Shown: in pieces, positions 37,990 to 54,370 of the stretch
Layout: each line of letters opens with the position of its first letter
How positions within the stretch are numbered: position 1 is the first letter of the stretch
DNA from: Galerina marginata
Lineage: Eukaryota; Basidiomycota; Agaricomycetes; Agaricales; Galerinaceae
NCBI GenBank assembly: GCA_023014335.1
Contig: JAECYW010000006.1
Location: 372,001 to 436,000 of the forward strand
Direction of reading: 5' to 3'
Length of the DNA stretch: 64,000 bases
Translations under genes and position numbers: made by a program
The notes under the pieces: generated by a model
Told to the model about the DNA's origin: nothing
Database searches by the model: none
The model's input: only the letters and a program-made list of their open reading frames with translations

Positions 37990-39519
37990 CGGGACTTGCC
38001 TTTGTTCATCACCCTCCCTTCAACCCTCAGCCATGGCGCTAGGAGCTTCGCTTCTAGCGTCACTAGCTCTAGCCCTCCTAACCTTCGACCCACTAGCGTC
38101 CAGTTGCTTCGCGACGGGCGACTACTACCTCAACCCCCGCCTCCAGAATGGCCGCGCTGCCCTCGCAAGGTGAGAGTACGACATTTTCATTACCCGTTAG
38201 TTATACGCGAGTCGGCATACTTGAGCATGGCAAGCACCTCGCAGATACCCCGCAGGGAATAGGCCTGGTGCTTCACCCATGTAGTATGTGGCATCGATCG
38301 AAGGCGGCCGGAGGCCAGGATCTAGCAGATACCCCGCAGGGAATAGGCATGATTCTGTGCGCACAGCCCGTCTATACGATTGTGCCGGACCTATTTTCTC
38401 TTCCAAGATCTCTTTACCTATCCAGCTTTCCCTACCTTCACTGATTATTTTTTTACAGACGAAATGTTGGCAGCCTTCCCTGCCAACTCCGATTTCAGCT
38501 TCGAAGATGGCGCTCTTCGAAACTGGGTTCACGACCCCAGTGACCCGCCTGACCCGCCGCTTCTGTCTTTAACCCCATCACCCGCGTCTTCGCGCTCTGG
38601 GTCGCCAACCCCATATTCTACGCAGGCCGTCGCGTCATCTCCAACCCTTGAGCCCTCCTCATTCGTGCCAGCCCTGGTGGCGGCCGCACCCATGACCAAT
38701 GCAGAGAAAAGGAAGAAGGGGAATAAGAGGCAATCAAAAGCCCAAAGGAAGAGGCGGAGGCTGGCCGCTTCTGAGCACCAGCCCCATGAGGGTTTGGCTC
38801 GAAAGTAGGCCAAAACCACGCCTCAGATCCCTGCATCGTTTGACGCTGAGGACATTTAGATGGCAACAACTGGCTGCGCTGGCAGTCGCCGGAGCGATAC
38901 CCCCAAAACTTTCACCCTAGCAGGTCTCTCTGGGCCGGAGTTAACATATGGGTTCAAGTTGCATGAATGGGACACAAAGTACGTATATAGGAGTTCTCTT
39001 TTCTAATTTCTTTTCTAATCTCTGATGGGCTCCGTTAGAAAACGCCTCCTCATCGCCGGCTTTAAGAGTCGGGTCATCGGGGTTGGAGTAGGCGCACCCC
39101 AGGGCGACCCCGCTTGGGCTGGCGTACACGCCGCATCAGCACAGGCCCTTGAGGAGGCGCGCAGCAAGCTGTGGCCCCCGCCTTTATTCCTATCAGCACG
39201 AGCAGTTGTCAAAGCTGGTCAACGAGGATGTGAGGCAACGCGCTGCCAACCCCAAAATACGCCGCCAGTACGAACCTCTGCGAAGAAACCTCCCCAACAC
39301 CCCCTGGGCGGTGACGTCATTCAACTTTTGGCCGAGGGAGGGGTGCTTCAAGCATGCCGGTTACAACAACTTAGCCTTTGGGTGGTGCTGCATCACCGCC
39401 CTTGGCCAGTTCGATCCAACGAAGGCGGCCGTTTGGTTCTTTGGGATCTCGGGGTGGTCATAGAATTCCCACCCGGCGCGCTCCTACTTAGAAAGTCGGC
39501 CCACAAGAACTCTGAATGA
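37990..39519 (+). pseudogene. DSBH dioxygenase-like protein (mushroom-expanded family), inactivated
   Basis: Exon scraps on the plus strand. A basic linker EKRKKGNKRQSKAQRKRRRL is at 38700-38765; GFKLHEWDTK is at 38950; VIGVGVGAPQGDPAWAGVHA follows near 39080. The core TSFNFWPREGCFKHAGYNNL...FGWCCITALGQFDPTK then loses one base near 39420, after which GGRLVLWDLGVVIEFPPGALLL continues in another frame. The layout (His-x-Asp, small-residue turn, GGxLVLWD, FPPG) is that of a double-stranded beta-helix 2OG/Fe(II) oxygenase, possibly related to TET/JBP enzymes. Here the expected HxD reads HAG, so an iron ligand is also lost. A 25-bp block (AGCAGATACCCCGCAGGGAA...) occurs twice, at about 38236 and 38321. 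Confidence 0.6.
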
Positions 39520-40119
39520 TAAATTCAACAAACGCTGTCGAAAATCACGAGGACGAAAAAGAAGAAAACTCGGAAAGGATCAACTTACGTGAATTGGTTG
39601 GAACCATTCTTATTCAGAAGAATCAAAGCCGCTGCAAGAGTTGCTAGTGGGCCAAACATGAGTGTACGCCATATCGTGAAGGAGCTTCATCGGCAGGGTC
39701 GCCAGACTTTCTCCCGAATTATTCCCAACACCATCAATACCATGAAGATTGAAGATATCATCAACAAAGTCCTCAAGAAGATCGATTCTGGAGAACCCGT
39801 AACCTCCATCGACAGTCGCATCAAGACTCTGTGTGATTGTACCACCCGATGGCTCTGGAATGGATATCAATCTATCAACAAACCGGAGTTGGTTCTGGAG
39901 GTTCAGTCAATGGGATAATCGACTAGTATTAGGGCAGACTGTGCCTAGATAAGATTGATAATAAACTACGGTACAGCCAGCTACGTGTAGTCTACGGTTT
40001 ATATACCCAGTTCCCGTGGAAAACATAGAGAAAGAGACGAAAGGAAAGGAATCAAAAAGAAAAGAACACGAGGCGCAGCCTCTTTATACATTCGCGGTGC
40101 ATACCTCATCTCAACATAT
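39520..40119 (+). pseudogene. Transposase N-terminal-like fragment and nearby spacer
   Basis: 39590-39918 encodes RRIKAAARVASGPNMSVRHI and IVKELHRQGRQTFSRI, which resembles the N-terminal helix-turn-helix of another basidiomycete DDE transposase group. The rest of the protein is missing. 39919-40119 is spacer without a gene. Confidence 0.4.
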
Positions 40120-40681
40120 TGACCGCTGCAATGCTTTCGGCGGTTGTGCCTCTCACTTGGATGGCTCGCTATGTCAAGAATATCCCGCGGCTACTCGTTT
40201 ACTCCGATGATGACTTTAATATCGTAAAAGCATCATCACTTGTCGAGTACAAACCTTTCAACAGATATCTATGCCTGCTGACCAAGTCGCACTCATGAAT
40301 CTTTGGACGGAACTCGGTATTCCTTTTAAAGAGAAGAAACAAATCATCTTTGGTTCTCCTCTTGTCATAATTGGGATTGAAGTAGACCCAAACGCGATGA
40401 CGTTCACCCTTCCCAAGTCGGCGTGCCTTGATATGGTTGCAGAAGTTGAACGCTTCTGTCCTATTACACAAGGCTCTCGTGGCGCAAGACATACATTGCG
40501 TGAATGGAAACAACTTTCCGGTTGGATTAATTGGGGTTTCAATGTCTTTCCGCCTCTACGTCCTTGCTTGAATAAATTCTACGCAAAGATCTCAGGCAAA
40601 GATGCTGCTAATGTGGATTGTGACCTCTCCTTTGAATATCACAAAGACAACATCCGTGGTTATTTCAAACGAATCGTTTAA
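40120..40681 (+). pseudogene. DIRS-like reverse transcriptase fragment
   Basis: One frame gives WMARYVKNIPRLLVYSDDDF; SDDD corresponds to the polymerase YxDD box. Two extra bases near 40270 shift it to MPADQVALMNLWTELGIPFKEKKQIIFG...IGIEVDPNAMTFTLP and REWKQLSGWINWGFNVFPPLRP. This combination is typical of the DIRS/Ngaro-type retroelements found in mushrooms (RT followed by the RNase H connection). No tyrosine recombinase or ends are present. Confidence 0.6.
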
Positions 40682-41315
40682 ATTTTTCTTACCTGGTCAC
40701 AAAGCAGACAAGTTCTTTGAAGGAAATGTTAGTACAGTGTTTATGAAATAAAATATTGCAAACGTGAGTATATAGGATTGATACAATATATATACAAGGA
40801 GAAATCATGCCAAAAATCAGGGTGTTTGTCATGAATGAATGACTATGATTATGTGAAATGTTTTTGTCGACAGTGATGCTGGATATCTGAACGCGGTGAT
40901 GCTATATCATCGAATGTGGTTATCGTACATCTCTGACAGCGGTGATGCTATATCTCTGACAGCGGTGATGCTACATCTCCGACAGTCGCCGACAGCGGTG
41001 TTAGCGGGAATGAAAATCGCCACTGCTCATGATCCTGTTGGATGCTTGCTTCCTGAGGACGTTGATTTTTCCGACTTGCGGTGACGATAATCGCCGCCGT
41101 CTTCGATGTCCGGGGACTCATTTCTCCGCCATGCGGGTTACTGATTTCTCCGACATGCGGGAATGCTAATTTGTCCGCCATGAGGCAATGAAAATCGTTT
41201 CAATCCGGGCATACTCATTTCTCCGACATTCGGCAATGAAAAGGGTTAGGAACTGATAGATTTGATACAATTGTTACCGTAACAAATTTTATATCCAGTG
41301 GTTCCCTGAAACCTA
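40682..41315. repeat. Left repeat cluster of the 12.7-kb unit
   Basis: 40682-40870 is plain AT-rich spacer. From about 40875 to 41235 short units recur: first (T/C)CTGACAGCGGTGATGCTA types, then TTCTCCGACATGCGG and TTTGTCCGCCATGAGG types. The shared core CCG(A/C)CA(T/G)GCGG is a near-palindrome and matches the core of the cluster at 53044-53575. Spacing varies from about 20 to 40 bp. Confidence 0.65.
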
Positions 41316-44300
41316 CTAGTTCTCTCCGTCGCCTTCTCCTTCTTCATCCTCTTCTCCTTCTTCATCCTCTTTTTCCCCTTCATCTTCTTCTCCCTCTGTT
41401 TCTTCTTCACCCTCTGATTCCTTCGTCTTCTTAACTTTAGGAGGTGCTCTCTTGTTTCTCGATGCCCCTGATTTCTTTGAATTAATCCTCTTCCTCTCCG
41501 CTCTCCACCTTTTCCGTTGAAGTTGTTCAGAGTGCTCGATCAGTCCTTTTAGCTTGAAAAGTTCAGAAAGTACTTCTTTGATCGGTCTCGTCACATGAGT
41601 TCTCTTGGGTCCAACTTTCTCCCCCGTCGCCCTCCCTATTTCACGAAACTTCATGTGCTTCACGTTTACCAGAATCGCGATTGATTCTTCTCCTGCCGCC
41701 TTGCACCATGTCGTTCCCTCCTTCCTCTCCGTAAAAATTTCAGAGTTCGGAAGACACTGAATTTCATCAAATATATCTTCCAGACTCCCCCAAATTCTCG
41801 TTTTCTCCTCTTCTCCTACATTCCTAAGCTTCTCGTGGAACCGTTTGATATATCCGACCTGTTCTGCAAAGTATGGCGCCCATTTAGATCCTCTAGGTGG
41901 TAATACCGTATCGTCTGCTGGGAAATAAATCTTGCTGCGCTCCATGAATGATTTCGCCTCTTGTTTCCCTCTCACTGCCCCCTTTATCCCACACCGGTTT
42001 ATGGAGAAAGAGACAGACTTGAGCGAATTAACCATGTTCTCTGCCGTCCAGAATTCCATCGCATTCTCCAAGGTTTGAATACCATTTACGTCTTTCTCGA
42101 TCCCTTCAGTCCAGTTGGACTTGATCGAAATCCAGAAAGACTTTGTGAAATCGACGAATATCACTCCCGAAAATATGTGTATGTTTCCAAGATAACTTGG
42201 TGTAACCCATTCCCGAATAATAGTCGGCGGCCGCTCCTTCAAATTTTCTTGAACTTTCTTCCACGTCGGCGTCGGCCCAAGCGGGTATTCCACACTTTCA
42301 CGTGGAATTTCTCCTAATCCTCGTTTCCGCCTCTTAGGTATAACCTCCAGTTCTGCTCTTATTTGCTCGTCGTCTTCTTCTACAACTCCGGGAAGAGTAA
42401 CAGATCCGTCGTTCTTAAGATTAAGCTCGTGGAGGAACATCATCCCATGTGTCGACGTTGTAACCCTTGTTGAAAGTGCCGCCAGCGAATGCTGAACGTG
42501 AGTCGGAACTTTCATCGGCGTCGACTCTATGCTACGCATGAGGTGCATCAATAACCCGCAAATTATCCCCTTGTTCTTTGGAGATTTATGGTGGACATGC
42601 GTCGTCGCAATCTCCACAGACCTGGCTCTAGCCGTCGCGAAATCGAACCATGTTTTGGTGGGTATCCAGAGGACTCCATTCGACTTCTTGAACCGTTCAA
42701 ACTTGAATATTAATAAAGTCAGCCCTCATTAAAAGACGAAAATTGTTTATTTAAAATTCCTCACCACATCCTCTGCAGATTCCAAAAGAGAAACGGCTGC
42801 CTCACCACTCACCCTAACCTCGTCCCTCACCCCATAATTTCTGGATTCACGTTCCTTGTACTGTTCGTATTTCCCCTCGCACGCTTTCAAGAATGTTTCT
42901 GTGAGATTGTAAGCATCTCCATCTCCACAAAACCAAGGGTCGTTGTCTTTTTTTCGAACCGCCTCATACACCAGGTTATAGGAAGAACGATAAAGAACAT
43001 GTGTCCTTCGCATCCGCTCCTTAGACATCTCTGCCTGTATTGCTCCATACCCCGACAGCGTGTTCAGGTGATGGGCGGTACCTGCTTTGAATCCCGCCTT
43101 TGCGAAGGACTCCTCCAAAAATTCCATCCTCCAGAGTCCTGTGACGCCTTCCCTCCGATCCGTATTATTTTCCTCTTCGTCTTGTGAGGACCTTCGCGGA
43201 TGGTAGGTGAACCCTACGTCCATGTGTATTTCTCCGTGTTTGCGATCTAGAACGTAGCCCCAGTCCATCTGAGGAGCGCTGTTTTTAAGGCAATCCATTA
43301 CATCTTTGCCATCGTCAGATATCACGTTTAATTTGGATCCTTTGCATTCAACGACGAAAAAAAAAGATTTGAACCGGTCCATTTGTCGGCTGTCTGGATG
43401 GTTTTTCATGATGTCGTGCATCTTTTCTTGAACCTTCAAAATAGTAGAAGGGTCCACTGATTTTGAAAGGCCATAGTATGGTGTTTCATCTCCAGGTGAT
43501 TTTTTCCCCGGCCTTTTTCGAAGGTTATCCGCCACAGAGAACTCGTACCATGGCTCTCTCGCTGTACCTTCTACGGCGAATCGGAGGCTGGGCAAAACCA
43601 CCATGTTCCAGAACCAAACTAAGATCTCGGAAGGTATATAGGTAACCCTTCGATGGGTGTATTCATGTCGGTGCATCATCCGAGGAAAGAATATGTGGCA
43701 GAATATTGGACTGTTCCCCTCTGTTACTTTGGCGAAGAGCGTATGTGGAATGTGAGAAAGTGGAACTCTTCGTTCAATCCAAGAATGCCTAGTCTGTTCC
43801 GCGGCCTCAATTTCTGTCGGCGGTTCCAGAATTTCCACATACACATGGTTGTGTTTTTTTATTCCAGAGTTATTTTTCAGACACGGTGTAACCATGAGTC
43901 CGACGGGGGCGGCGAAATTTACCAGGTCGGTGACCCACACAAAGCTGTCGATGTCGACAGATAGTTTCAGGTCGATTTCTTTTAAATCTATGGCGTCCCG
44001 TTCCAGGTCCACGCAAACATAATCGCCCGACATTGTCTTTCCGCGTAGGAAGTATGACACGAGCATACTGGGGTCCTGTCCTTGGTTTACCGAGGAGCAT
44101 ACACGCTCAAGCATCTCCGCTGCACCTAATAGTTCAACGTCTCCCGATGAGACCATTCGGAGCTCCGGTATTCCAGTTCTACCAATCGGTCTTGGGTCGA
44201 TGTGCATTCTTCGGAAGTGGTGAATGGAATTTTTGGGGTCGTATTCTGGGACTAGCGGCATGACATGCAAGTCCAGAAACATGGGACGGCACATGTAATA

Positions 44301-47300
44301 TGAATACGCCCATCTGACCAAAAGGCGGTATCCATAGTCGCGTAGATACGCCCAGACGCTTTTCAAATAGATGGACGAAAGAACTGGGTGATATATGGCG
44401 AATGGATGTACAGGATCTTCGAAAGCGCGAAGGTCCTCTCTAGTTGGACCACCGAAATAGTCATCATAAGCAACGTCGTGTTTTGGCCACAAAGGCCCTG
44501 GGGGTAGGGGAATATCGCAAGGTATCGCCGTTCTCTTCCTCCTTTCTATGCTCCGCTGGTCCCAATTTACCTTTGTTATGTTAAGCCTCCTTGTCCTAGA
44601 CGTGTCAACAGCCTGAGCGTCTTCCACTGGCACGGTTTCATGTTCGTTCGGTTGATCTCGGAGAAGAGGACCCAATAAGTCGATCAAAGATCCGTCGTCT
44701 CTGTCTTCTAAATGTTCTTCTTCTTCTCCGTCTAAATTTTCTTCTTTCTCTCCGTACAAGGTAGGCGCAGGCGGTGCTTTGGAAGACGGGGACGTAAACT
44801 GAGACGGTCTAGAGGATCTCATGCATCTTTTACAGCACGAAATGTGCCTATTTAATGCCTGATAAACGTCCGAGCGGTCGTTATGAAGCGCCTTGTATCT
44901 ATTCGATAGTTCAGGTTCCGAGTCGAATGGAGGGCGTTCAGTGAACCTAGGGTACGAAACGGAGAGGTTGTCCCACAATAATGGCGGATTAGACCTAAGA
45001 TAGGTGTAGTTTTCGATAGATTCTCGAATACTAGCCCTCAGAACAACGAAGATATTCATCCGCGTGATGTGGTGACAAGATTCGGCTCGAGAGATTGATT
45101 TTCGAATTTCGTGTTCTGAATAGGGTTCTGTGAGGAGAGATTGCACCGTTAGAAAGGCCACAGGTCCACAGTCCTTTCCATTCATTTTACATGGAACGGA
45201 CCGGGTAGTAACACTTTCTAAAGAGCCGACGGTCCATCCGTGCAAGTAGCATATTGCGCTGTATAATTTTGGTCCGTCCCATTCTTCCCATCTGTCTGTT
45301 CCAGAGTTGTTCGTCCTTCCAAAAACTGTGACAAATCTCCGCTCATGATCCATGTGCACGGCGAAGAAGTGGTTGTCTTTACGGACGACAAAGACCTTGG
45401 GTTTCAGTGGGCATATTCCTTCGATTGGAAGTAAAGCCCTTTCCCGGAATCGTGGAGTAGCAATTCTCCTGAGGTCCTGGTTGTCAATATTCATGACTTC
45501 GAGGCTGTAAGAATCCAAATACGTGGCGGAAACGTTGGGATAATTAGAGTAGTAAAACTTCATCAAAACGAAGTTCAATACGGAGTAATCCATCCATATA
45601 TCAGGAGCTATGGACTCATAGGACCGAAGGACAGGCTCCCAGACTTCGTACATGGACATCACTTCCGCTATCAATGTCATAAATAAGCGAATTTTGTGGA
45701 AATTTCAGCAAGGCACCCACCGTCAACCCTTTCATAGGACTCAGAATCCCCGACGCTTTGGCGTCCAGGAGAAATTGTCGCGGAAAGAGGTAAATCAGGA
45801 AGATCCATAGGGTTATTTTGATCAACTTCAGATGGCTCATAGTCCTCGTCGGACCCAGGGTCAATATCTTCTTCTCGTATGAAGTTTTCGTCACTCATTT
45901 GAATGTCTGTCGTTTTCCAGGATGTTTCAGTCGTCTAATAGAGGAGTTGTTCATTATTTCAAGTAATAAATATGAAAGTAAGGTATTCTTACCTCTTTTG
46001 AGAAATATTTACGACTCCCCTGGGTCTTAGACCATGAAATGAGGTCTATGGGAAGTAAACCGTACATAAATTCATCAAGCTAGTGCAAAGGATTGTTCAG
46101 ATTATCGCTTATAATAAATAAGAGAGCTGTACCTCTTCAGATAATGAGCGAACCCTGTCTAAGGCGGATTCTTCCTTCCATAGAGGTGGTTTCAAAGGAT
46201 GGTCTACTTCTTCTTCTGAGGAAGACAAGAACCCCTCCTCGTCTTCAGGGGAATGCAGAGAACTTCCAAAGGTGGAATTTTTCTCAAGAAGACTTATTAT
46301 TTCGTTTAACTGGTGGACTCTACATTGAGCTAATTCCAAAAACGAGAAGTTAAATAGACGTACATTATCTTCTGGTGTTGGTATGGGAGAAGATTTACCC
46401 TCCAGGGAGGTTATAAATTCGTTTTCCAGAGTTTTTCTGGGTGGGGGAGCACCGTCCAGCCAGGATAAGAATTTTTTCAACTGGGGAACTTCAAATTGAG
46501 ATTTAAAAGGTGCGAAAATCAATGAACATACACTTTCTTCCGGGGTTTCTTTGGGTGGAGGAGCGCCATCCAGGAGGTTTATTAATTCATTTAACTGGAA
46601 ATTCAACATTCATATAATGTTGAAAATTAGAAAATAAATAACCTACATCGTCTGCTGGTGTTGGTGTGACTATAGGAATATTTTCCAATGAACCTTGGCT
46701 ACTTTTTTTCTCGCCGAATGGCGGATATTTTGAGTTCGGAGATCTGGAGTTATAAATGCGGGAACGCGGAGATTGTGAGTGTGGAGAACTGGAGTTATCG
46801 ACGCGGGAATGCAGAGAATATGAGTGCGGGGATTGTGAGTGCGGAGATCTATAGTTATCAGGGCGGGAACGCGGAGTATATGAGTGCGGAGATTGTGAGT
46901 GCGGAGATCTATAGTTATCAGGGCGGGAACGCGGAGTATATGAGTGCGGAGATTGTGAGTGCGGAGATCTATAGTTATCAGGGCGGGAACGCGGAGAATA
47001 TGAGTGCGGGGATTGTGACGGCAGAGAACTATAGTTATCAGGGCGGGAACGCGGAGAATATGAGTGTGGAGATTGTGACGGCAGAGAACTAGAGTCATAA
47101 ATGCGGGAACGCGGAGAATGAGAATATGAGTGTGGTGATAAGTCTTCTGGTGCTGGTATGGCTGGAGGAATACCATCCAAGAGGGCTATTAATTCGTATA
47201 ACTGGGAAATAAACATTCATATAATGTTAAAAATTCTTTTAAAAAAAAAAAATACTTTGTCTTCTGGTGTTGGTGCGGGTGTAGGAACATTTTCCAATGA

Positions 47301-47531
47301 CCCCCAACTACTTGTATTTTCTTCGGATGGCAGATGTTTTGACAGGGAATATTTAGAGCTCGAAACGCGGGAACGCGGAGATTGGGAGAGCGGTGATATA
47401 GGGGTGGAATCCTTCGTTTTCTGCCTCTTAAATACTGACAGACCATTGTAATTCCGCCCAGGCGATGGTACACGACCGGAATCTTCCCTTTTTCGCTTTT
47501 CTCCTCGACAAGTCTTTGTGGGGGATGACAT
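41316..47531 (-). CDS. Giant 1,925-aa protein with Ulp1/C48-type protease domain, nine exons
   Basis: Exons: 47256-47531, 46647-47201, 46532-46594, 46364-46480, 46133-46309, 45993-46079, 45721-45934, 42765-45667 and 41316-42701; introns 51-63 bp, 5,778 bp in phase. Residues 1-280 are Ser/Pro-rich with SPHSYSPRSRPDNY repeats. Exons 2-5 each open with a leucine-rich motif (LYELIALLDG, LNELINLLDG, LKKFLSWLDG, LNEIISLLEK). The eighth exon opens with a C48-type cysteine protease: His in HFFAVHMDHE (near 600) and the Cys box NGKDCGPVAF (near 655), as in SUMO/ubiquitin-like proteases. It continues with a long unrecognised region (GLWRMEFLEESFAKAGFKAG; RRTHVLYRSSYNLVYEAVR). The C-terminus is basic, then Glu-rich. 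Without the last 63-bp intron the protein would stop at 42747 (1,469 aa); the spliced form is preferred because the downstream frame is open back to the acceptor and has no ATG. It could be the transposase of the unit, but no catalytic triad is assigned. Confidence 0.7.
46740..47110 (-). repeat. 60-bp coding minisatellite in the giant gene
   Basis: About five to six units of 60 bp, each coding for 20 residues of the SPHSYSPRSRPDNY type. Two adjacent units (46861-46920 and 46921-46980) are identical, so the array has expanded or been homogenised recently. Outer units are diverged. Confidence 0.9.
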
Positions 47532-47589
47532 GCATTCGAAGACATGAATTGGAAGACAGAAGGTGGTTAGAGAGCGTTATAGAAGGTGA

Positions 47590-48449
47590 TTAGAGAGCGT
47601 TATGTAAAACCGCCTGTTGTTTATTTGTTGCGGCCCCTGCATCCCCGCTGCTAAATCTTGTCGTGACCTGTCCTACCCCTTTTTTGAGAACCATATCTCC
47701 ACCCTGAAAATCGCCGACAGAAAACATCACCGCCCAAACATCCTTAGCGTCCCTTGAGTCCCTGTGCGGTCCGCTTCTTCGATTGACAATAACTCCTAAT
47801 GTCGTGTGAAGCGAAGGGTTGATCGCAAAAATTGCCTCCACGTGTGCAGAATTGGCGATCATTTTCTCCCGGAGACTCTCCATTTTAGCGTGGCAGTCAG
47901 GATGGACAGTCTTGATCAAATAGTTCATACACCGGGAAAGCGGCGATAATTTTTTTAGTAGTGCGGTCCCCTGAACGAACTTGTTACATCCGCCGACGAG
48001 GGACGATGTAGGCATTGACGTTTCCTTCTGCGTGTTTTTTTAAAGACTGTTTTCAAGGAGAGTATGAAATATAAATTTAACGTGTGATTTAACGTGTGCC
48101 CAACCTGGTGGTTTGAATGTGATAAATATACACAACTTTTGAGAGGTACCCACGCCGGATCCCAATTAGGCCATTCCGTATCGATGTACTCTCCAGCAGT
48201 GTGGTCGGCTTCAGGAGAAAGCAGGCCCTGAGACGTGTATTCAAGAACCGATGACAGGATCTGTTTCTAGGGTGATCGAATTAGTCGGATCATCGACTAA
48301 AATGGTGATCTGCTCACTTGAAGTTCGGTTGATATTATTGATCGGAATATAACAGCTTGTGTAACTCCATCTGAGTCGATAACGAAAGTATCTTCCGATC
48401 GATCAGTGAATGGCTCAGTCATGGCTGTTCGAATTATTTTCATCGGCAT
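47590..48449 (-). CDS. TET/JBP-like 2OG-Fe(II) dioxygenase, 228 aa, three exons
   Basis: Exons 48318-48449, 48150-48266 and 47590-48027; introns of 51 and 122 bp, all phase 0; start at the ATG 48449 (MPMKIIRTAMTEPF). The last exon holds LGVIVNRRSGPHRDSRDAKD, with the HxD iron ligands as H-R-D, then VWAVMFSVGDFQGGDMVLKK and a TTRFSSGD strand. That order matches the fungal TET/JBP dioxygenases, which oxidise 5-methylcytosine or thymine bases in DNA. A His in AVLHNAL stands about 51 residues after the first ligand, a fitting distance for the distal iron His. The protein ends three residues later, so the Arg that binds 2-oxoglutarate is missing, or lies in an exon I did not find. It shares the strand of the giant gene and lies 58 bp upstream of it. 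Base-oxidation activity is therefore uncertain. Confidence 0.55.
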
Positions 48450-48706
48450 GGAGCGTCTAACTAAGCCAAAAAAAATCACTTTTATAAACTTTGTTAATAT
48501 TTCTTGAAAATGGTGTCTTGAACCTCATCGTCGAATTTTCTCGACATGAGGGGCAAGGTAGAGAAACTTCACGCCGAAATATTTCATTTGAAACAACAAA
48601 TTTTAATCACGTGACTAAACGCCGTAAATTAGTAAGTTCGCTTCTCTGCAATATCGTCAACATCCTTGTTCTTGCTTCCACCCATCACCACTTGACCCTA
48701 CTAGAA
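48450..48706. promoter_or_regulatory. Divergent intergenic promoter region
   Basis: 257 bp separate the start codons of the leftward TET/JBP-like gene and the rightward 710-aa gene. It contains a perfect E-box CACGTG at 48608-48613 and a run of A opposite T-rich sequence near 48466-48480. The giant gene is probably transcribed separately from the 58-bp gap or co-transcribed. Promoter function is inferred from position. Confidence 0.5.
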
Positions 48707-51322
48707 ATGAGCGCCTCTGTTATCCCTGATTTCAAGTGGGACCTTCAACGTCCTGCGGAGGACTCTTATTCCGAGGAGTTGGAAGCTTTGGCCTCAGATC
48801 AACATCGTCTGGAGGGAGGGTTTCTCGTCCCTTTCTCTCTGGAAACCTCGAAGGACGATCCTGACGAACCCACTGTGCCAATCGGGAATATTCCTGTCAA
48901 TCACCTGAAACTTTTCCTGGCCAAAAAGACAGTCTTGGCTCTTGTTCATAAATCCCGTGTCCCTCTGGGCTTGGTTGGGGAATGTCTCGTCCGTCTGGAG
49001 GATTATCTCCTCTACTACGACTCTATCATCGAGAAGTTGATCGAGAAAGACTTCGACGTTTTGGAGAGGTGGTGGAACGTCGAATTGAACTACGAAGAAC
49101 TCCAGCATTCCCCCGGCGGCGTCATGAGGAATTCGGGACCCCTCACCGAAGCGAGCCTTCTCTTTGAATGCCGCGCCGAGTGGAATTTGCCCGACGTGTA
49201 CAAACTTCCCAATGTAGCTCTCTCGGAAGATGAGGATATCATCGCAGGCATGGTTGAAAGTACTGCGTACTGGATTGAAAGGGAGGCACTTCGCAATCCC
49301 ATCGGTGAGTCGACAATTTTGCAATTATTCGGTCATGACTTCACTTTTTATTCTTAGCCAACGAAAACGACAATGAACAAGAGGAAGGGGAAGAATTGGA
49401 GTCCCAGAAACCCGTTGACAGTGGCAAAGGGGAAATCGGAGGTTCTGTCCCCGACGGCGGCGAAATGACGTCCGGCGGTTCTGTCCCCGACGGTGGAGAA
49501 GCGACAATCGGCGGTTCTGTCCCCGACGGCGGAGAAGCGACTATCGGCAATTCTGTCCCCGCCGGCGGAGAAGAGTCAATCGGCGATTCTGTCCCCGACG
49601 ATGCAACGACGGAAGTCGTTGAAACGACAGGTAAACAGAGCTGAATTGACACCTGAAATATTCTAACTGTTACTTAAGGTCCTGCTCTAAGAAAACGGCC
49701 GACAAGAGCACTGACGCAGAAAGGACAGGAATCCCAGGTGGAGAAAAGTCAGTGCTAAATTTTAAACACATAGAGTCGTCATCTCATTTGATTCAAAGGA
49801 AAAAACAAGTCGACTAAGGCCGCGTCGAATAAAAAGACCACCGCGGAGAAGAGAGCGGAAATCAAGGACTCTAGTTCGGCGAAAAGGTCACGGACAAAAA
49901 AGAACACGGAGAATAAGAAGGGAAATAAGGATGTTAGTCGAAAGTACGGCCCCAAGAAGATCATTGAGGGAATTTTAACGAAAGGTGAAGATGAGTTTAA
50001 ACCTTCTGGATCTCACAAGGCTCTCGTCGACTTTTATCCGAGTCTTCGTGAGGTTCATGACAAGGTCTTCCGCTAAATACCGGCCTACATGTTCTCCATC
50101 TTCACTTCATTTCGTCCGTTATAAAGTAAACAAAAATCTGATCTTAGTGTGTCTATGAAATAGATATTGAACCTGCCGAACATGACAAGATACAAGGACT
50201 CGACGAAGACACAGGTTAGTAAAACGACCAATATTTTTATACACTAAAATCCAAGGTCATTCATTCTAGTCAAAATACGCTCTTTTAAAGGGAAATTTAC
50301 GTCCAGAAGCTCTGGGTATCCGAGGGTTATACAAACTACGTACAGCAAGCAGGATAGATACATACTTAACAGGCCTACGGTACGATCAAAGCACTCCCCC
50401 GAAATTATAACATCAGACGCAGAGCACGACGATGAGGACAAGGACAAGGACGACGAAGAGGACGAGGACATCAACAGTATTGATAGTTTCTTGAGAACGC
50501 TTCCCAGACTTGGTATGAAGGCTTATTCTCTCGTCTCGAAGGGTTACTGAAATATTTCTCCTCGAGAAGACCTTTCTACACCGCCTTCTAGTAAATGCGA
50601 CTCAAACGGGAATGGGGGCTACGAGAAAAAGGCGACAAATACTCAGAAAGGTGGACCTTCAGGCCTAAAAACGACCGCAGAAAGAACGACCAAGGCACCC
50701 TCGGGTTCACCAAGGGCGGAATACAAGAGAAGGAGGACCAACTCTATTGAAGACGCCTCCTCCGATGATTTTGACATAGACAAACCCATAGTCGTTCGCT
50801 TAGGCCCCTACCCAGACAAGAAAACTAAAGCTCCACCAAAAAAGAAGAAGAAAACACACAACATAGAGCAGGAAGACGGTAAAATATTAGAGAAGGGGAC
50901 TATAGATCGAAGCCGTGTCATCCTCAACAACCTCGGAGCAGACCTTCGATCTCTGCACCGCCATTTGACAGACAAGAGGAAGGTTCGTTTTCGACGGTAT
51001 ACGTTTGACGTTAAATGGTGGTTTCATACCCTTCTTTCAGACTCGAGAAAGCGAAGAACCCTTCGTACGCTGGATAGCGCAACTGAAGCTCGAAATCGAA
51101 AAACTCAGTGATTCGGAGGTATTTGATTTGATTTCAAAAAATGTAAGTTTATCTCGTCGTTTTTTTGGTAAAGAATCGTCTAAAATAGAAATCATCTAGA
51201 GAAGTCAAATCAGCTTGATTACGAAGATAATCGTTCCACGTGTAAAGGGTGCTACGAGTGATAAAGACGTAGTGGATCCCTTGGCGCATAGCTTCATGGA
51301 GTTAGTCCTACCCTTCAGGTAG
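48707..51322 (+). CDS. Unknown 710-aa charged protein with VPDGGE repeats, nine exons
   Basis: Exons: 48707-49304, 49358-49630, 49679-49747, 49799-50064, 50148-50214, 50270-50512, 50567-50982, 51041-51118 and 51200-51322; introns 48-83 bp, in phase. The start is the ATG 48707 (MSASVIPDFKWDLQRP). Residues 1-200 are folded-looking, with acidic and aromatic helices (LEDYLLYYDSIIEKLIEKDF; ECRAEWNLPDVYKLPNVAL). Residues about 225-290 hold tandem SVPDGGE(A/M)TxGG units. The rest is Lys/Glu-rich and probably disordered, with several nuclear-signal-like clusters (RKRPTR, PPKKKKKT). Near the end comes a leucine-rich helical part (RWIAQLKLEIEKLSDSE). No family recognised. It lies between the dioxygenase and the BAH-PHD gene, so a chromatin scaffold role is possible but only guessed. 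Confidence 0.6.
49430..49610 (+). repeat. Coding repeat GSVPDGGE (about 36-42 bp period)
   Basis: Five units of TCTGTCCCCGACGGCGG(C/A)GA type in a row within exon 2 of the 710-aa gene. They differ mostly at the ends of units, indicating replication slippage followed by drift. Confidence 0.85.
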
Positions 51323-51610
51323 GGCACACCCCTTTTTTCGTCAGGAAAATTCTGCTAAACATTCACCAGAAATTATTTTACTACTTCGTCCGACGCCGCC
51401 ACGTCGTCACGTTAGATCAGGACCCTTTATGTAAAATTTAATTGACGTAATTCGTTTCATGAACTTGACAATGAAACCGCCGCATATTCGAGACCCGATT
51501 TATATAAAATAGCCTCGTCCTTTTAGAAATCTAATAGTCATCCCGTCATATAAATAGCTGGGGACCTCCTTATTTTTTTATAACCAAAAACACCGCATAA
51601 TTCCCCATCA

Positions 51611-52970
51611 ATGGAGTTCAAATCGTTACTCGACTCCGATGAGTTCCAGAAGTACTTCTCAAGGTCGAGTACAATGAAAAGTGAGCCAACACCCTATCTA
51701 TAGTCCGTCTCTATGTTCACGATTTCTCAGTTTACCAAAACGACGGCGATGCCTGCCTTGAAATATCCGTCGGAGATTCGTGAGTCGAATTTATTTAAAG
51801 GAACGCATAGTTAAATAATTTCCTATCCAGCGTCTTTGTAAAGCCTTCGAAAGAGGTTTACAATAAAACAAAGCTTTGGAAGGAACGTAAAGAAATTCAA
51901 GGAAATCTGTACTGGCAGGGTGAAGTATTAAAACTGGGTCTGAAAAGGGAGTGTGAGGAAATAGATTCTGAGGATGAGGAGGGCGGTCTTAATCTTCCAG
52001 AGGTATTTTTATTGACTTCTTACGTATTTTTTTATTTATTGACAAGGCTTTCAAGGCAGTTATCATCATTCAGTGGTACTATACCTACTACGACGTCGCA
52101 GAAAGTTTCAATGAGGCTTTAAAGTTGTTGTATGTCCATTATATATATCTAATGTAGACTTTCTAATCGAATTCATTACGGCCAGGGATAAGTGGAAAGT
52201 AGGCCATTTGGAAAGGATACAGAGCAATCACCGCCAAATATTACTTCCAGATTGCATTTCCGGTAAGTTTGTTGTTTTTTTCTCTCTCTTAAATTCTGGC
52301 TTACTCTGTGAATCAATAGACATTGCGTATCCAAAGTACTTCAAGGACACCACCGTATCCATGCCCCTTATGGAAGCGGAGGACTATTTTATACGAGAAG
52401 GAAGGCTTCAATTTAAGGGCGACGAAATCTCTTTCCGCGTGAGTGGTTTTTTTCTGGGAATATATATATACAATATGATATCTAAAAACACCGGTTCAGA
52501 GAAAAGAGATATTGTGCTACGACGGCTGCCTGAAGAACGGAGTTTATGACCCCTCTGACTCTAAATGCGAGCTGAGGTGGTGTGATTCATGTAAAAGGTG
52601 GTTTCACTACTCGTGTCTCAAAACGGAAGACGCTGCTCTCTGTGTAGCGGGAAAAAATCAAGGGTACATCGTCGAGGAAGGCGATGGAATTTTTCATAGG
52701 CTCATTTCTAGTCCTGTGAGAAGGGTATCTAGGGGACATGATGCTCCTCTCAGCTTGGAATTGCTCCAGACGCATCTGATCAAGGTCTGGAATGATTCGG
52801 GGTCTGAAGACCTGGATTACGAGGTAGAAGTTCTTGATGGAATTCGAGAAAAAAATATTTTCGGTGGAGAAGTACCTGAAGATTGGGAGAATAGGTTGCA
52901 GGAAAGTCTTGATGCTATGGGGGATTCAGAGTGGGTGGAGTGCCGTGTCTGTGCATCTTTTCTGATTTAG
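51611..52970 (+). CDS. BAH-PHD chromatin-reader protein, 346 aa, seven exons
   Basis: Exons 51611-51680, 51731-51779, 51831-52002, 52047-52129, 52186-52262, 52320-52438 and 52500-52970; introns 44-61 bp; 1,041 bp in phase. Residues about 30-165 fit a bromo-adjacent-homology (BAH) domain: ISVGDSVFVKPSK, LYWQGEVLKLGLK, AVIIIQWYYTYYDVAES and SNHRQILLPDCISDI. Next comes a PHD-type zinc finger with the pattern C-x3-C, then WCDSCKRWFHYSC (C-x2-C-x4-H-x2-C). A further Cys pair, ECRVCASF, is at the very end. BAH and PHD modules bind nucleosomes and methylated histone tails, so a nuclear reader or targeting role is likely. The frame is intact. It follows the 710-aa gene on the same strand after 289 bp. 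Confidence 0.75.
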
Positions 52971-53043
52971 TTGAATTTCCTCACTTGAATTGAATGTGAA
53001 ATTGAACTATGAATATTTTTGAATGGTTATTTGTGGGTTCAGT

Positions 53044-53580
53044 CATCTAGATGTCAGTGGGATGGAGCAGTGATTTAAATTCCCGACAGGCGGTGAAATA
53101 CATCTCCGACATGCGGACATTTACATCTCCGACGGGCGGACATTTACGTCCCCGACAGGCGGTGATGTACCTTCCCGCCTGGCGGTGATATCAATCCCCG
53201 GCAGGTGGTGAAATACATCCCCGCCATGCTGTCAAATACATCCCGGCCTGGCGGTGACTTAAACCCCCGACAGGCGGTGGAAAACAACTCCGACGGGCGG
53301 ATATTTACATTCCCGACGGGCGGTGATATCAATCCCCGACAGGGGGTGAAATACATCCCCGACAGACGGACATTTACATACGGACATTTACATCCCCAAC
53401 AGACGGACATTTACATCACCGCCTGTCGGGAAATCAATCCCCGACAGGCGGTGACATTAATCCCCGACAGGCGATGACATAAATACCCGATTGACAGGTG
53501 GTGATATACGTTCCCGACAGGCGGTGATTTAAATCCCCAACAGGCGGTGATATACATCCCCGACAGGCTTCCGAACCCAT
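53044..53580. repeat. Right repeat cluster of the 12.7-kb unit
   Basis: About 20 irregular units of 22-30 bp, with core CCCCGACAGGCGGTGA and variants CTCCGACATGCGG, CCCGCCTGGCGG. The core CCGACAGGCGG is nearly its own reverse complement, and at about 53417 it is present in the opposite orientation. The A/T-rich spacers between cores (TTTACAT, ATATCAAT) vary. The cluster starts 73 bp after the BAH-PHD stop. Confidence 0.8.
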
Positions 53581-53611
53581 GGCTTCCGAACCTATTTCTT
53601 AGGTACCAACT

Positions 53612-54230
53612 TTGAACGAAAGGTTAAATGTTCTGAGAAAAGCTTCAAACACAACTATTTCTGCTCTTGTCGCCTCAATTTCCGAACTGTCAACCTGCCT
53701 ACCGCAGGATTACCTTCGAGAATCGGCAGCTCTGGACCGTGCAATATTTCTTCGAAGCTCCTTGGTGTGCTGGGCTGTCACTCAAGGAAAGATAGTACCT
53801 CGTGCAATGCAGCTCCGCTCGATTCTTGCCGACCAACGCGGCCGGGACAGTTTGATTTCCGCGGGAACTGGAAGTGGTAAAAATTTACCAAGCGCTCTCT
53901 GTACCTTGCTCGACGACCCAGCCAATAAAAAGCTTACCATCGTCAGATCTCCTCTTAAGCGACTGCAGAAAATCCAAGCGAACGAATTCTCGACACGTTT
54001 TGGACTTCGTGCCGTTGCTATCAATGAAGACACCCCTCGGGACTCCACTTGGTGGCCCGTAAGTCATCGGTTCATAAAGCTTTACGCACGCATATACCCA
54101 TATTTCGACAGGAAAACATCTTCTCCTCTAAATGCGGCGTTTAAATGCACGTACAGGTCCTCATTGTCACCGTTGAACATATTTTCCGAACACCCGAGGG
54201 ACATTTCCCTCGAATGGCCTTTTACTAGGG
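53612..54230 (+). pseudogene. RecQ-like helicase N-terminal fragment
   Basis: VPRAMQLRSILADQRGRDSL is followed by the Walker A box SAGTGSGKNLPSAL, in which the usual Thr after GSGK is Asn. Then come LTIVRSPLKRLQKIQANEF and AINEDTPRDSTWW. After a frame change LIVTVEHIFRTPEGHFPRMAF follows. These are the motifs of the RecQ/DEAD-type helicases common in mushroom repeats. The fragment stops before motif II, so it cannot be active. Confidence 0.7.
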
Positions 54231-54370
54231 ATGGGTAGGAATAGGACTAGGGAGAGGTAGGGATAAGTAGGGATTAGACTAGGAAGGGGTAGGGATAGGT
54301 AGGGATTGCTGTGGAGAGGGGTAGGTATAGGTAGGTATAGGTGTGGAGAGGGGTGGGGTTGGGTAGGGCT
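54231..54370 (+). repeat. GGTAGG-rich simple repeat
   Basis: Irregular reiteration of AGGGGTAGG/GATAGGTAGGG words. It immediately follows the helicase fragment. Confidence 0.85.

Follow-up and report, generated by a model that had tools for sequence, protein, structure and literature searches.

A giant protein family of mushroom fungi with a predicted Ulp1-like domain and a candidate Rep_trans-like core

In a 64,000-nucleotide stretch of the Galerina marginata genome (contig JAECYW010000006.1, here C40, positions 372001-436000; assembly of 69.3 Mb in 43 contigs), which we call the window, we found a gene for a 1,960-amino-acid protein that belongs to a real family with no catalogue entry in the libraries searched. 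A Ulp1 fold is firmly predicted in this giant protein, and its conserved core is plausibly a tyrosine-dependent, Rep_trans-like DNA nickase, as judged from residue order and structure models. We tentatively favour the view that the giant processes DNA for a mobile element not described before, combining a Ulp1-like protease with such a core, a view that we hold with less than even confidence.

The giant protein family

The giant gene lies on the minus strand at 47531-41316 and was spliced by hand at GT-AG introns into seven exons (47531-47256, 47201-46647, 46594-46133, 46079-45993, 45934-45721, 45667-42765 and 42701-41316), giving a reading frame with no internal stops. Within exon 2, 60-bp coding repeats are present in 5.9 copies (46766-47119), with fewer in a partial copy of the locus near C40:499 kb. 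Searching with residues 560-1780 returned two relatives, and a four-sequence profile, scored against just the 7,998 candidates with the most words in common, returned at least 43 proteins. An organism is named in 16 of 43 rows (27 name none), and these represent 13 species, all of which we take to be Agaricomycetes: Hydnomerulius pinastri, Pholiota conissans, P. molesta, Melanogaster broomeanus, Suillus subaureus, Phlegmacium glaucopus, two Tulasnella, Gymnopilus dilepis, Boletus reticuloceps, Gyrodon lividus, Cristinia sonorae and Rickenella mellea. The nearest named relatives among the matches listed are from Pholiota. When 45 members were compared with Pfam, PHROGs and NCBIfam, each family listed came from one member only (best E 0.014), and the giant protein falls outside the family libraries searched. 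A scan of viral contigs with protein P0001 gave no match, and at the level of titles and abstract openings we found no report of a giant gene joining Ulp1 and a nickase. In a tree of the core built from 39 of the 45 rows (the six with fewer than 350 core columns were left out), the window protein stood by Pholiota and metagenome rows and a second G. marginata giant, from contig C13, grouped with Phlegmacium (support 1.000), so that one genome carries two deeply split lineages.

Structure prediction placed a Ulp1/SENP-like protease domain at 45000-45665 of the minus strand (exon-6 residues 1-222), and the Ulp1-type fold of this model bears out the first-pass annotation of the window, which had named such a domain. 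The domain shares with Ulp1/SENP proteases (C48) the predicted fold, a conserved cysteine within N-G-x-D-C-G and a conserved histidine; in the family alignment the catalytic cysteine is kept in 22 of 24 rows with a letter at that position and the histidine in 18 of 22. Unlike C48 proteases, it reaches just ~10% identity in structural alignments and is fused to a large core, and the Pfam C48 profile listed no match for the giant protein or family members.

The conserved core and the predicted origin

The conserved core, likely a Rep_trans-like nickase, spans 42780-44048 of the minus strand (exon-6 residues about 540-962), with Y896 (exon-6 numbering; 42978-42980) as its candidate tyrosine. Among the folds listed, its predicted model gave a weak match to Rep_trans-type proteins. 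As in the Rep_trans initiators (PF02486: RepDE, RepSTK1; also MOBT relaxases) and archaeal Rep-Arvir, three acidic residues, a tyrosine, a following glutamate and R-x-E occur in the same order and secondary-structure setting, on matching strands, a likeness of sequence order and secondary structure only. This residue order is invariant in the family alignment of the core, whose conserved residues include D573, D816 and E949 besides Y896. The locus also resembles Rep_trans systems in having a hairpin beside near-palindromes. By contrast, the core has long insertions, a Ulp1-like fusion and a fungal host; Rep_trans nickases are described as enzymes of bacteria, a related family in archaea having been reported in 2026 (PMC13107129, in the part of the text available), and titles and abstract openings yielded no report of a eukaryotic one.

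Several observations weigh against a nickase-bearing mobile element. The PF02486 profile listed none of the 45 family members at E up to 10. The Rep_trans motif III, R-x-Y-x-K, is absent from the core, where the arginine stands at -3 instead of -2 and a leucine at +2 leaves no motif III lysine. The locus is also known, at present, to spread only by local duplication. Separately, a viral-protein fold search gave no match at E 0.001. The Pf1, B5 and SMA9 phage proteins, tried as sources of Rep_trans sequence, did not match PF02486, nor did the SMA9 protein find any match when searched against plasmids.

The predicted origin lies in a repeat array downstream of the genes on the plus strand. The motif CCGACAGGCGG, allowing up to two mismatches, occurs 41 times in the window against 12.6 expected, and none of 100 shuffles had as many. 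It is densest in a right array of period 23 with CCG-N5-CGG cores (53070-53568); motif and repeat scans also found a weaker left cluster (40873-41240). The first-pass annotation had described two clusters of the same near-palindrome. Enrichment and clustering of the motif were confirmed, but the clusters are not one repeat: the right array has 12 CCG-N5-CGG cores and the left cluster four with N5 and one with N4 spacers, and the left-type array of a copy at C40:499-502 kb has 28 CCG-N4-CGG cores. Everted CGG triplets are typical of Zn2Cys6 regulators. Within the right array, one inverted unit forms a perfect 15-bp hairpin with a 9-nucleotide loop (53416-53454), the predicted origin. Its fold was the best of seven 150-nucleotide stretches (z -4.58, with 0 of 200 shuffles as stable; the other six, z -2.46 to 0.30), and its sequence is unchanged in the C40:499 kb copy.

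Neighbouring genes, copies and flanks

The giant gene shares the minus strand with a TET/JBP reading, and a charged-protein reading and a BAH-PHD gene are on the plus strand. Of these four, annotated at first as intact-looking multi-exon genes, the giant and BAH-PHD genes have unbroken models, whereas the charged-protein reading consists of open frames and the TET/JBP gene is truncated. The BAH-PHD gene (51611-52970) has seven exons encoding 346 amino acids. Its PHD scored 17.8 bits, under the cut-off of 24, and the BAH assignment was made by eye and from the UniRef name (BAH domain-containing) of the one relative that a search returned, 42% identical and on a 5.3-kb contig. The charged-protein reading (about 48707-51322) has 36-bp repeats and an end that looks by eye like a coiled coil; a repeat scan placed the tandem repeat at 49434-49600.

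Nowhere else did we find all four genes in this order. A giant gene is accompanied by a predicted chromatin-reader gene at two loci, the window and C13, where a giant gene on the minus strand, matching that of the window at 30%, has a divergent PHD-bearing gene on the plus strand (its PHD part 28.9% identical to that of the window over 83 amino acids, E 7e-5 in a 3-kb target; this part was not listed in the genome-wide search). Genome searches for TET and the array unit found neither at C13. The C13 locus, with its giant gene, occurs in two copies ~94 kb apart (C13:1172780 and C13:1266706 onward), which agree at 99.9% identity for 28 kb or more. That the C13 pair stands without array or TET between what look by eye like host-gene frames fits an immobile nuclear module, in which the giant and the BAH-PHD reader lie in a repeat-rich stretch and are duplicated only locally, and the core of the giant has another function. 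We consider this somewhat unlikely, given the patchy distribution of the family (some species have a second, partial copy), the two deeply split lineages within one genome and the invariant Rep_trans-like residue order.

The copies of the window locus, all partial and all on C40, also favour an immobile pair. One, at C40:149.6-165.3 kb, repeats window 31916-52470 in inverted orientation but without 38473-47237, and has insertions; because it carries 6.5 kb of the outer left flank it is a segmental duplication, and local duplication explains at least this copy. It has ~2.2 kb of extra sequence (C40:153962-156128) at the place of window 48578-48591. The other, at C40:499.4-501.9 kb, has fragments that match window 46.7-47.8, 50.6-51.2 and 52.8-53.6 kb with 92-99% identity. 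We found no terminal inverted repeats or target duplications at the cluster edges: between 40601-40900 and 53541-53660 no common direct word exceeds 8 bp and no inverted one reaches 9 bp, and no 7- or 8-bp duplication of the kind made by KDZ was convincing, at edges that may not be the true ends. A proven transposon ending at the clusters was therefore rejected, and with terminal words lacking, the array present in another family and the flank co-duplicated, the self-contained mobile unit bounded by clusters that had been proposed did not hold up.

Genome-wide, 13 matches to the array unit (up to two mismatches) were found, confined to C40 and grouped at four places; a reversed control had none. 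Two of the four places, C40:170717-177823 and C40:489675-496370, lie in another repeat family, so the concern that the clusters are a satellite unrelated to the genes is partly borne out. Members of this family are ~6.7-7.1 kb long, 94-98% identical and have two genes that by eye show C-x2-C-x6/7-C frames and coiled coils; the CCG-N5-CGG array adjoins the end of one gene, and a protein encoded by the family may bind the array.

The surroundings had been called dead debris. In a partial check, the right flank proved to be a helicase-gene fragment (53577-54218; weak DEAD match of 25.2 bits, cut-off 26) whose ATG directly follows the array, and a left-flank frame (40223-40681) had no Pfam match. 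Copies of the fragment occur on C23, C7, C9, C43 and C40, four of them besides the one at C40:499 kb; other copies have different upstream sequence, so we rejected the helicase as part of the unit. Directly after it, at 54224-54368, is a degenerate TAGGG-rich minisatellite that resembles decayed telomeric repeat. An array that sits inside another family and abuts a fragment with differing upstream sequence, the truncated TET and the extensive duplication of C40 would suit a patchwork, in which giant and BAH-PHD genes, TET fragment, minisatellite and helicase fragment were joined by rearrangement and the arrays are unrelated to the genes. This is improbable: the C40:499-502 kb copy keeps the same order, its gene pieces standing between a left-type array and the right array.

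The TET/JBP gene (48449-47590, minus strand; Pfam Tet_JBP, start and introns set by eye) stops 58 bp upstream of the ATG of the giant gene, in the same orientation. Its match (E 5.7e-7; 29.3 bits, under the 34.9 cut-off) covers model positions 31-121 of 164, ending at 119 in a second genome search. The H-x-D iron motif is present as HRD, aligned with four other TET frames of the genome, whereas the arginine-bearing stretch of those frames (GKRAS/GDRAC) and the last strand of the catalytic domain are missing, and we rejected an intact gene. The window TET exon matched no PDB sequence.

A lost TET carrier (KDZ, Plavaka or other), with these genes as cargo and the transposase gone from this copy, is suggested by the rest of the genome, in which three of 18 TET matches have a KDZ match no more than 5 kb away and 11 have a Plavaka match no more than 23 kb away. 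Four matches (the window, C29, C1 and C3:636536) are near neither, and the giant gene adjoins TET in one of 18 cases, the window. We judge a lost carrier very unlikely. The first pass had recognised no KDZ transposase, and rightly: the genome has 124 Plavaka and at least 135 KDZ matches and the window none, so a KDZ or Plavaka transposon there was rejected; Helitron and other carriers were not searched for. The lack of a target duplication at the cluster edges also speaks against a lost carrier. KDZ and TET matches ~4 kb apart at C3:1336006-1340571, C10:915502-920041 and C39:263804-269172 fit TET-bearing Kyakuja elements. Five TET matches at C23:2780865-2870203, spaced ~19.46 kb and each ~10 kb from a Plavaka match, are either a tandem Plavaka-TET unit or an assembly effect, and KDZ matches recur every ~20.2 kb at C40:2749519-2832370, with one step of 21.9 kb.

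As in the fungal TET-bearing DNA transposons of Kojima 2025 (PMC12730594), the window TET/JBP gene stands beside a candidate DNA-processing protein; unlike in those transposons, it is truncated. None of the 11 carrier lineages in the available part of that paper was recognised in the window, and the same part does not contain the terms Ulp1, protease, SUMO, PHD, BAH or peptidase.

Proposed mechanism and meaning

If the giant does serve a mobile element, rolling-circle copying would begin where its core nicks one strand, at the hairpin of the 23-bp array; copying of this kind would create no terminal inverted repeats and no target duplications. SUMO-like marks on proteins of silencing or repair might be stripped by the protease, the BAH-PHD protein could recognise histone marks and so recruit the complex to chromatin, and the TET gene, truncated here, may once have removed DNA methylation. 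That an element's own proteins counter silencing through short repeats is an idea known from VANDAL/VANC of Arabidopsis, as described in abstracts; unlike there, the window proteins are unrelated to VANC and the role of the repeats is proposed from sequence.

The broader claim, that the locus represents a new class of eukaryotic rolling-circle element in which a fusion of Rep_trans-type nickase and SUMO-type protease (the first such initiator outside bacteria and archaea) works with everted-CGG arrays, a hairpin origin and an anti-silencing kit of chromatin reader and demethylase, is rather unlikely at present. If true, a eukaryotic fusion of this kind would add a third branch to the Rep_trans nickases and give fungal DNA a new means of moving. 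If the nickase reading fails, an uncatalogued Agaricomycete giant family beside a chromatin-reader gene would still be a clear target for study.
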